Positions 30,343 through 44,720 of a DNA stretch of 54,918 nt are shown here, piece by piece. The first letter of the stretch is position 1. Every line of letters begins with the position of its first letter. The DNA is from Pseudofrankia coriaricola (lineage in GTDB: Bacteria; Actinomycetota; Actinomycetes; Frankiales; Frankiaceae), in assembly GCF_001854805.1 (NCBI RefSeq), contig NZ_MBLO01000279.1, positions 31,527 through 86,444 of the forward strand, written 5' to 3'. A program made the translations under genes and the position numbers. The notes beneath the pieces were generated by a model. That model ran no database searches. It saw nothing but the letters and a program-made list of their open reading frames with translations, and had not been told where the DNA came from.

Positions 30343-30707
30343 GCTGTTCCTCCCGCCCCGCCCTACGATCCCCGACCGCGATCCCGGCCGGCCCGGCCCC
30401 GGCGCTGATCCCGCGCCGCGGCCACCGGGCGCCGACACCACCGATGTGACCAATCCCATGGTCGCACCACCGGCGGGCACCCGATGTGGACCGGACTGAC
30501 CGGAACCTAACAGTCCACGGCCAAGGTCATCTCATCACCTGGCGCCACCGAGGTGTCAACCGGCGGACAGCGCGGGACAGGACGCGCGCCGCGCAGGACG
30601 GCACGCGCACAGCGACGACTCCGGCAGCACTGTGCTGGCAGCCATGCACACCGGCCGGATGCCCGGCTGGTCGCGCGACGACCATTGTCGGGCAGATGTG
30701 GGACCTG
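30343..30707. other. Intergenic region between convergent-facing units
   Basis: No gene seen. It carries the promoter side of the minus-strand TerD-AIM24 gene (GGGAGG just before its GTG) and the downstream side of the ABC operon. No clear promoter box stands out. Confidence 0.4.
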
Positions 30708-31697
30708 TCACGACGGTCGTTCCAGGTCGCCTAACGGCATCCAGGGGCGCGAGGCTTCGCCATCGTCGCGCCCCTTTTGGCTAGCATCACCCAAAGGCCT
30801 CCAGGAGCGCGAGGCTTCGCCATCGTCGCGCCCCTTTTGGCTGGCATCACCCAAAGGCCTCCAGGAGCGCGAGGCTTCGCCATCGTCGCGCCCCTTTTGG
30901 CTGGCATCACCCAAAGGCCCCCAGGAGCGCGAGGCTTCGCCATCGTCGCGCCCCTTTTGGCTGGCATCTTCCGAGCCGCCGGCGCCGCCACGATCAGCCA
31001 CGCCGTTCGAGCTCGCGCCATCCGGGGTCCCGGCTCCGGCCACGGGCGCGGGTGGCTCGTCGTCCGCGAACGGCAGCGGACCGAGCTGGAAGGCGGACGC
31101 GGCGGCGAACACCGCGTCCGGCTCAGCTGGCTCGGCCACCGGCTCGACACCCCGGCGCCGCCTGCGCGGCCATGGCGCCGGCAGCCACAGTGACAGCGCC
31201 AGCACCAGCAGCGCCGCCATCGGCAGCACCAGGTACAGCCCGGTCGCGCGCACCCGCATGTCGACCAGGCTTATGACGTAGCTGCCCGCGTTCGGCGGCA
31301 GCTGGTCCAGCACGCCCGGCGAGCGGACCAGGTGGCCTATCCAGCCGGCGAGCAGGGAGCCCGCGAACCCACCGGCCGTGAGTCCCGCGGGGACCGGCCA
31401 GCCAGCGTCGGCGGCCCGGAGACGGGCGAGCACGCCGGCGGCGATGCCGGCACCCAGGCAGATGAACCCGAATGTCGCGTCGATGTCGGCCTGCGTGGTG
31501 AACGCGTTCTCGCTGCCGCTGATGCTGGCCGCGACGTCCAGGTGCGGCGCGGTGGCCGCCCACAGCAGGCCCAGCAGCGGCCCGGCGGCGGTGAGCGCGA
31601 GCAGGCAGACGATCCCCGCGCCCACCCCGGGAAGCCAGTACAGCCGGGCGAACCATCCGGCGAGGCCGACGAGGAAGGACCAGACCCGCTGCTTCAC
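30708..31697 (-). CDS. DUF2567-like membrane protein with 20-aa C-terminal repeats
   Basis: A 329-residue protein of which residues 1-185 hold four transmembrane helices. LLGLLWAATAPHLDVAASIS and DATFGFICLGAGIAAGVLAR resemble the DUF2567 pattern. After a charged Arg patch comes an acidic tail, then four in-frame copies of a 20-residue unit, ASQKGRDDGEASRSW then xPLGD, reaching almost to the C-terminus. The GTG start overlaps the stop of the ABC permease gene (GTGA), so it is the third gene of that operon. The repeats come from a 60-bp DNA array and may not be functional in the protein. Confidence 0.75.
   Translation of the reverse strand: MKQRVWSFLVGLAGWFARLYWLPGVGAGIVCLLALTAAGPLLGLLWAATAPHLDVAASISGSENAFTTQADIDATFGFICLGAGIAAGVLARLRAADAGWPVPAGLTAGGFAGSLLAGWIGHLVRSPGVLDQLPPNAGSYVISLVDMRVRATGLYLVLPMAALLVLALSLWLPAPWPRRRRRGVEPVAEPAEPDAVFAAASAFQLGPLPFADDEPPAPVAGAGTPDGASSNGVADRGGAGGSEDASQKGRDDGEASRSWGPLGDASQKGRDDGEASRSWRPLGDASQKGRDDGEASRSWRPLGDASQKGRDDGEASRPWMPLGDLERPS
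30739..30968 (-). repeat. 60-bp tandem repeat array, about four copies
   Basis: Four units of exactly 60 bp lie head to tail with very few differences, inside the 3' end of the membrane-protein gene. Each unit contains an inverted repeat: AGGGGCGCGA and TCGCGCCCCT in the copy nearest the stop codon (10 bp, perfect); the other copies have TCGCGCTCCT, which keeps pairing by G-U. An inner GGC-GAA-GCC adds a small second stem. Confidence 0.92.
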
Positions 31698-43416: not shown

Positions 43417-44720
43417 GCCGGCTTCCGTCGCCGGTGCGCGCCAGCGACCCGGGGGACGATCGGACCTCCCAGCAGACCTCCCAGATCACGACCTCCCAGA
43501 TCGGCTTCGCCGATCCGGCAGGGACCCCGTCCGGCGATCCGGCAGGGACCCCGGCTTCGCGATCCGGCAGGAACCCCGGCCGGGTGCGCGAAAGAAGAGC
43601 ATTTTCGCGCACCCTTTGGTCCTCCAGGGCCGGTTCGGCACGCTACACGGCGGACGCGGTCACGCACCGGGCTACCGCGGCGGTGGTGGAGGCCGCGACG
43701 GCCAGCGGCGCCGGGATAGCGAAAGCGGCGGACCGGGCCGGGCCGGTGCTCGACCGGCTCGACGACGCGCTCGTCCCCAGGACCGGCCGGGCGCTGGAGG
43801 CGGTGGTCGGCGCCGCCGCGGCCACCAGCAGGACGGTCACGGCGGGGCTGCTGCGCCTCGCGCTGCGCACCCGGCTGCTGCCCGGACCGCCCGAACCGCC
43901 CGCGCCCGCGCCCAGGCCCCGGACCGCGGACGGCGGGTCCGGCCCAGACGCCGGGTCCAGCCCGTCCCCCGCCGCCGCGAGGGACGCCTCCGCGTCGGCC
44001 GTGGCGGAGGGGCCCTCGGTCGGCCGGGCATTACTGGAGCGCGGCGCGCGGATCGCCGTCCTCGGCCTCGTCGCGATGATCGTGTTAAGCGCCGCCGCGG
44101 CCCTGCTGCCCGGGATGGACGGCCAGCCCCGCACCGAGCCGGCGAGCCCGCCGCCGGGCGGCGCACCGGCTGGGCAGGCGGACGCGGCCGTCGTGCCCAG
44201 CGTGACGATCGGACCGACCGCGGGAGAGTCGACGGCGGACTACGTGGGCGGCGCGGATCAGTCGCTCGTAGCGCTCGCCGAGGCCGCGCCGGAGGCGGAC
44301 CTGCTGGCGGTGGTGAGCTTGAACGACTACCGGACCCCCGACGGCCTGCAGGCGCTCCTCGCCACCTACCGGGTGACGCAGGTCTTCTTCACCGTGCCGG
44401 GGTCGGGCACGGTACACCAGGCGGAGGTGCGCACCCCGGTGGACGACGTGCTGGCCGCGCTCGCCGCGCAGGCGGCCGAGTCGTCGAGGCGAGCGGCGAC
44501 GGCCACCGACCCCGCGGCCCGGGAGCGCGCGTCGGCGCAGGCGCAGACGATGCGCGGCGGCCGGAGCTGTTCCTGCCTGTTCGCCGCCGTCGTGCGGGCG
44601 TCCGCCGCCCGGCTCCTCGCGCTGCGCCAGGACTCTTCGGTCCGCGTCATCGACGCCGCCCCACCGGCCACACTGGAGAACGCCGTCCGCTTCATCCCGG
44701 TGACCCCCGAATCCCGGTGA
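43413..44720 (+). CDS. Single-pass membrane protein of unknown function
   Basis: A 435-residue protein. The N-terminal ~60 residues derive from short DNA repeats and are rich in Thr, Ser, Gln, Pro. A helical stretch follows, then a transmembrane helix ([20 protein letters not shown] at about 212-231) and an outside domain of ~190 residues with [20 protein letters not shown] and [20 protein letters not shown]. This outside part looks like a conserved actinobacterial domain, but I cannot name it. The GTG start overlaps rluD (GTGA), making it the third gene of a coupled operon. A pair of Cys (RSCSCLF) lies near the end. Confidence 0.72.
43465..43575 (+). repeat. Short direct repeats in start region of membrane protein gene
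   Basis: ACCTCCCAG occurs three times (43466-43500 region), followed by GATCCGGCAGGGACCCC twice and a third partial copy GATCCGGCAGGAACCCC up to about 43575. The units are in frame as TSQ and DPAGTP. Confidence 0.75.

Follow-up and report, generated by a model that had tools for sequence, protein, structure and literature searches.

Four tandem hairpin units of 60 bp encode the C-terminal tail of a probable membrane protein in Pseudofrankia coriaricola. Very probably a dispersed palindromic element of the REP/RPE kind, itself non-autonomous, was captured in frame by the host gene and was then amplified locally to give the array. The element occurs in part of the Frankia group and is there a family of its own without a recognised mover. 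In this genome the hairpin is present at dozens of places, mostly just behind genes. The DNA analysed, termed the window, is a stretch of 54,918 nucleotides and part of an 11.2-Mb genome assembled in 280 contigs.

Results

The hairpin array and its host gene

Tandem Repeats Finder reported the array at 30736-30968 of the window with a period of 60, 3.9 copies and 97% matches; its score of 438 was the highest of 130 rows. The hairpins are located on the plus strand, antisense to the host gene and in frame with it, at 30736-30784 (68.0 bits), 30796-30844 (71.3 bits), 30856-30904 (71.3 bits) and 30916-30964 (69.4 bits). Hairpin 1, which is the last one in the gene, has a perfect 10-bp stem and CTAG at its end. 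The stems of hairpins 2, 3 and 4 each contain a single A-C mismatch on the plus strand, which is a G-U pair on the mRNA. This confirmed the initial annotation, which had described four near-identical in-frame units at a gene end, each with a 10-bp inverted repeat in which a change of the right arm keeps a G-U pair. The spacer CATCACCCAAA at 30785-30795 recurs unchanged between the other units (30845-30855, 30905-30915), a sign of local duplication. With all three spacers identical, the array does not have the unique spacers that are required of a CRISPR. The outer leader of hairpin 1, GTCGTTCCAGGTCGCCTAAC at 30716-30735, by eye resembles CTAGGCCGTGTCTGAC, the leader of a sub-family.

The host gene (30708-31697, minus strand) codes for 329 amino acids and ends 28 bp past the array. 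Read on the minus strand, it stays open across the entire array and yields 20-residue units of the type GDASQKGRDDGEASRSWRPL. A Pfam search with the host protein matched no family; it is probably a membrane protein, judged by eye from its hydrophobic sequence. On one side it is next to genes for an ABC ATPase and an ABC-2 permease; on the other there are two genes, one of the TerD/AIM24 and one of the AIM24 type. A promoter-like site on the minus strand was noted near the array at 30684-30711.

Pairing in the hairpin family

The structure exceeds the 10-bp stem as it includes GGC/GCC at the tip and, in the family, an outer GGCC/GGCC. The family unit of about 60 bp consists of a leader of about 11-16 nt and a 46-nt hairpin, GGCCTCCGGnnCGCGAGGCTTCGCCATcnTCGCGnnCCTTyGGCC. 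RNA folding of the window units was compared with that of shuffled sequences. A strong fold was obtained with unit 1 on the plus strand (z -2.88) and, on the minus strand, with two units (z -2.78); it was modest with unit 1 on the minus strand (-1.67) and with unit 2 on the plus (-1.54) and minus strands (-1.96).

Conservation of pairing was evaluated in an alignment of 50 copies (A1). Here 92.0% of the cells were paired compared with 86.7% after shuffling, and both-sided pair changes were present in 37 cells compared with 9.7 in shuffled alignments; none of 500 shuffles reached 37. Such changes affected 7 of the 17 pairs of the stem, and pair 10-38 was seen as GC, CG, UA and AU. Many rows of A1 had been chosen with pairing among the criteria, which raises the paired percentage but cannot create four pair types. 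Both-sided changes could, on the other hand, originate from templated correction of quasi-palindromes without any selection. The mismatched cells comprised 31 A-C and 9 G-U on the plus strand of the element, a possible strand asymmetry. If the hairpin acted as RNA, this excess of A-C would favour the complementary strand; the rows of A1 are related, however, and a mutation bias is possible.

The host gene across the genus

An orthologue of the host gene was identified in all eight genomes of the genus, the own genome included. Four hairpin units are present here, one in P. asymbiotica, and none was detected in the other six, at whose host loci the covariance model found no hairpin at E ≤ 0.01. 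In five of these six the tails of the orthologues were read, and all end without a repeat unit; in the sixth, G004, the covariance model likewise gave no hairpin at the orthologous locus (L077). The copy in P. asymbiotica is still matched by the covariance model with 31.8 bits. In folding it does not surpass shuffled sequences (z +1.23 and +0.91), although it can be read through without a stop, and the one-copy tail retains DDGE-SRP--PLGD-ERPS.

These data bear on the suggestion in the initial annotation that selection acts on the nucleic-acid structure. For the family as a whole the both-sided pair changes argue in its favour. At the window locus maintenance of the hairpin by selection was not supported: the A-C/G-U mismatch in units 2-4 is one change that was copied by duplication and not three independent events, and the copy in P. 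asymbiotica folds no better than shuffled sequences although its frame is open.

Dispersal of the element

Searched with the unit at E ≤ 10, BLAST returned 58 matches in the own genome including the four of the window, which were grouped by hand into 40 places. At E ≤ 0.001 matches were obtained in 5 of 41 genomes, all from one genus. An exact pattern occurred in 16 stretches among 84,980 species genomes, a collection which may not contain the own genome; eight were in Pseudofrankia asymbiotica NRRL B-16386, seven in Frankia nepalensis CN7 and one, probably a chance match, in Ancylobacter. The covariance model R1, with which at most the best 150 candidates per genome are scored, detected at least 132 matches among the 150 candidates scored in the own genome (E ≤ 0.05). 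The sister species P. asymbiotica (G005) and G006 had 68 and 78 matches at E ≤ 0.02. Over the genus at E ≤ 0.1, at least 134 matches in the own genome compare with 73, 84, 42 (G004), 5, 2, 2 and 1 in the others.

At E ≤ 0.001, R1 had matches in 14 of the 35 genomes of the taxonomic family. These were six of eight in the own genus, all five of genus g3, one of them with 101 matches, the single genome of g5, and two of the 13 genomes of g6 with two and three weak matches; at this threshold g2 (six genomes), g4 and g7 (one genome each) had no match. The eleven best places in g3 and g5 (L167-L177) had the same stem sequence as the copies of the own genus, and the loop was mostly different and A-rich. 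In the own genome, a sub-family has a loop near AGGAAGANC. The initial annotation had proposed a genome-wide search for the unit, and indeed many copies reside in other genes and in spacers, in the own as well as in related genomes. It had further reckoned that a unit missing from relatives and constant in copy number, with conservation at the protein level, would speak against a REP/MITE-like element; relatives do carry copies, and at the host gene their number differs between species.

Longer forms of about 112 bp, six in number and similar to each other, were noticed at L119 2450 and 8097, L102 2472, L084 2540, L120 2510 and L121 2495. They end like the short element, contain a second hairpin and are 89-98% identical to one of them. 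At L084 the long form directly follows a short form. In the window, a diverged intergenic relative of the hairpin with a different loop is present on the plus strand at 43578-43623 (29.5 bits, a weak match). It adjoins another tandem array at 43458-43583, which is made of a different hairpin, TCCCAGATCGGCTTCGCCGATCCGGCAGGGACCCCG, and resembles stretches in L011, L026 and L029.

Position relative to genes and the CTAG motif

Positions relative to genes were determined for 94 arrays. These derive from 134 R1 matches, 95 from the own genome (≥40.6 bits) and 39 from G005 and G006 (≥43.9 bits); an incomplete match of 46.9 bits at a contig end was left out. Genes were called by a purpose-built gene finder based on a codon model. 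Intergenic arrays numbered 71, and 23 were inside predicted genes, two of which overlap a predicted start. Because coding sequence makes up 0.82 of the loci sampled, genes are strongly avoided. The distance to a stop codon was measurable in 62 of the 71 intergenic arrays (for the other nine no stop could be measured). Half of these, 31/62, were at most 15 bp away from a stop compared with 8.9% of random intergenic positions; 20 were in sense and 11 in antisense orientation. Seven of the antisense arrays share bases with the stop codon through their right end, GGYCTA, in which CTA is the reverse of TAG. At one of these seven, L160 13875, the stop codon predates the element, judged from the sister species.

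The tetranucleotide CTAG was enriched at the ends of the element. In 178 distinct contexts it occurred nine times at offset -16 and, at the right end, ten times at -3 and eight times at 0; about 0.06-0.14 were expected per offset. Of stop codons within 20 bp of an element, 19/51 were part of a CTAG compared with 32/369 of those over 200 bp away (Fisher p 5e-7). By eye, all six long forms have CTAG at the right end and four of six have it on both sides. The motifs GTAG and CGTC had no preferred end offset in 179 contexts, with a maximum of 3 GTAG and 5 CGTC at any offset; CGTC is present within the hairpin (ATCGTCGCG). Since leaders and flanks overall carry little information, CTAG is to be considered a lead and not a rule.

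Empty and filled sites in sister species

Five places were compared with the corresponding sites in the sister species; three were empty, one had fewer copies and one was ambiguous. At L160 13875, about 62-65 bp comprising leader and hairpin are absent from G005 and G006. At L159 4571, G005 lacks about 60 bp, again leader and hairpin; the sequence there in G006 is a different one, intermediate in length. At L159 15303, leader and hairpin are missing in both. There, the hairpin of the filled site is flanked by CTAG on both sides, and by eye the alignment shows TCAG once in G005 and CTAG once in G006; this was the only one of the five sites with CTAG on both sides. Three copies at L160 2479 correspond to one decayed copy in each sister. 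At L159 7326 the sister alignment was ambiguous.

Copies inside genes and tandem growth

In copies within predicted genes, for which 19 loci were looked at, the reading frame continues through the hairpin. Such inserts were recognised in five conserved enzymes solely by comparison with distantly related proteins of solved structure. In an acyl-CoA dehydrogenase the insert is at query residues 162-192, between aligned stretches of which one stops at residue 165 of 6wy9 and the next continues from there. A hydrogenase maturation protease has extra residues 67-105 compared with 5ttx, encoded by two tandem 63-bp units. In PrmC residues 119-169 are additional to 1t43, i.e. longer than one unit. A phosphoketolase and a Rieske oxygenase carry extra residues at the element when compared with 8io8 and 6y9c, respectively. 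The 23 genic arrays were distributed over all six frames (antisense 9, 6 and 1; sense 1, 2 and 4). This indicated that no single peptide is propagated and that the propagated entity is the hairpin.

The period of multi-copy arrays was divisible by three in all five arrays within genes, being 60 or 63 bp, and in 6 of 20 intergenic arrays (Fisher p = 0.009). One intergenic pair (L043) has a period of 53 bp; its second match is shorter (44 bp). This bias is partly one of ascertainment, because the gene finder would call the place of a frameshifting array intergenic. The proposal in the initial annotation that a REP/MITE-like element entered and was amplified in multiples of three agrees with the many copies elsewhere and with these genic periods. 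Mean identity within arrays was 0.96 for the hairpin and 0.76 for the leader (59 pairs) compared with 0.76 and 0.29 between loci. Neighbouring hairpins at a distance of up to 100 bp had the same orientation in 57 of 58 pairs; the sole opposite pair is at L109 2357-2499. The high likeness within arrays and the uniform orientation of neighbours fit local duplication.

Search for a mover

A Y1_Tnp search gave no match in the seven genomes G000-G006, of which G000 is the own genome; the control had matches in 5 of 14. Y1 transposase (RAYT) is lacking here and in six of seven congeners, which is why the element was not filed as a canonical REP. In the taxonomic family, Y1 was present in 17 of 35 genomes: 8 of 13 in g6, 4 of 6 in g2, 3 of 5 in g3, one in g7 and G007 of the own genus. 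Hairpins are few or absent in g6 and g2, where Y1 is commonest. Among ten genomes with at least 15 hairpins (E ≤ 0.001), three (G024, G021 and G015) have one Y1 gene each and seven, the own genome among them, have none. Ten Y1 loci were fetched, including those of two of these three genomes, G024 and G021 from g3, and no R1 hairpin was present in them.

A longer autonomous form with the same leader was not recognised among the pattern matches in the own genome. The leader search returned 31 matches (the reversed pattern as a control gave 3), and of 30 about 115 nt downstream were read. The 15 exact matches were short or long forms of the hairpin; of 16 matches with one mismatch 15 were read, and some were family members, the rest unrelated by eye.

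Discussion

Relation to known repeat families

MIRU/VNTR of mycobacteria are dispersed repeats of some tens of bp which occur in tandem near stop codons with variable copy number. Compared by description, the present family differs from them by a conserved hairpin with both-sided pair changes. REPs, as characterised in PMC3733652, have been found mostly in Proteobacteria. They are located close behind 3' ends, and those of the GTAG class often supply the stop TAG; RAYT marks the GTAG class only, and CGTC REPs have no dedicated transposase. Some REPs are inside ORFs, including some in Rickettsia conorii, where they correspond to RPE-4 and RPE-6. Measured against this description, the present element is like a REP in being a short imperfect hairpin of high copy number, mostly intergenic near 3' ends of ORFs, sometimes overlapping the stop TAG, clustered in tandem and with copies in ORFs. 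It is unlike a REP in that the GTAG or CGTC end tag is absent (a minority has CTAG), the genome is without RAYT, neighbours almost always run head to tail whereas REPs are often paired in opposite orientation, and the host is an actinobacterium (PMC3733652).

In-frame palindromic insertions are best known from Rickettsia (PMC10969869). The RPEs described there are likewise palindromic and in frame within unrelated enzymes. They differ in length (about 150 bp compared with about 60 bp here), and the present family is mostly intergenic, has no conserved peptide in view of its six frames, is amplified in tandem in genes and belongs to an unrelated phylum (PMC10969869). As two marks of REPs (end tag and RAYT) and one mark of RPEs (conserved peptide) are missing, the element was considered a variant of this kind and not filed as a member of either. 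A literature search retrieved no published report of this hairpin element; PMC4447401 reports counts of palindromic repeats in Frankia strains.

Origin of the array

Several other origins were weighed. The element might be a MITE of an ordinary DDE insertion sequence with a 4-bp CTAG target duplication, which would prefer stop codons since CTAG is rare and often holds TAG. We consider this rather unlikely, even though CTAG is enriched at the end offsets beyond what stop codons alone would yield and flanks on both sides were seen by eye at L159 15303 and in most long forms, with a single TCAG or CTAG in the sisters at the former. CTAG is a minority overall, leaders are not conserved, no terminal inverted repeats beyond GGCC are discernible by eye, and a parent element was not recognised among the leader matches, where divergent parents are possible; a target motif without duplication would give the same picture. 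A canonical REP moved by RAYT appears highly improbable. The hairpin, the sites behind stops, the intragenic copies and the tandem clusters all are as described for REPs (PMC3733652), and three hairpin-rich genomes do hold a Y1 gene each. Against this, most hairpin-rich genomes have no Y1, Y1 is commonest where hairpins are scarce, the fetched Y1 loci contain no hairpin, and neither GTAG nor CGTC has a preferred end position.

Could the hairpin instead be a functional RNA or terminator behind genes that is kept by selection on expression, its spread being secondary? Covariation and the accumulation within 15 bp of stop codons would fit, and according to PMC12306157 E. coli REPs at most 15 nt from a stop stall ribosomes. 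However, the hairpin is missing at orthologous sites of sister species, is patchy across the taxonomic family and occurs in both orientations; a search for terminator-like sites at the window array found none, and Rfam at gathering scores returned no match in 10 sources. This makes such a function improbable as the origin of the family. Selection of the 20-residue unit as a tail of the membrane protein has very little in its favour as an explanation: the frame is open, the period is 60, and the one-copy orthologue retains part of the motif, yet the five other tails read are without the unit, all six frames are used elsewhere, and the per-codon coding score within the window array was negative (-0.34).

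A dispersed palindromic element captured in frame and amplified locally is then the reading which we favour. The unit would have entered the 3' end of the host gene in an ancestor that P. asymbiotica and this strain have in common. Reading would have continued through it because the insertion presumably was a multiple of three and the hairpin, in the frame used here, is free of stop codons. One copy may then have become four by unequal exchange or by slippage during replication. The resulting protein tail is probably a tolerated by-product. More tentatively, one may envisage that REP-like hairpins which favour CTAG, not GTAG or CGTC, spread without Y1 by an undescribed route, feed peptides in six frames into working enzymes and by tandem growth give rise to new repeat proteins.

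An actinobacterial group combines the habit of REPs with in-frame palindromic insertion in one hairpin family. The filled and empty sites in close relatives make it testable how REP-like elements move without RAYT, and also how often such elements create new protein segments and tandem-repeat tails. There is a practical side as well. In L012, L013, L021, L022, L043 and L110 a contig end coincides with a hairpin or is no more than about 80 bp away from one. Arrays may thus be places where assemblies break, and the true number of copies may be higher than counted.

Other dispersed repeats were encountered in the same loci. The segment L160 9205-9753 (contig C147 of the own genome) belongs to a palindromic element of roughly 250-550 bp that is dispersed and very abundant: G005 and G006 each have dozens of strong matches to it, on both strands. 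Three segments of L159 (2494-2652, 9816-9890 and 11843-11955) are also dispersed repeats and have counterparts at many places in G005 and G006.
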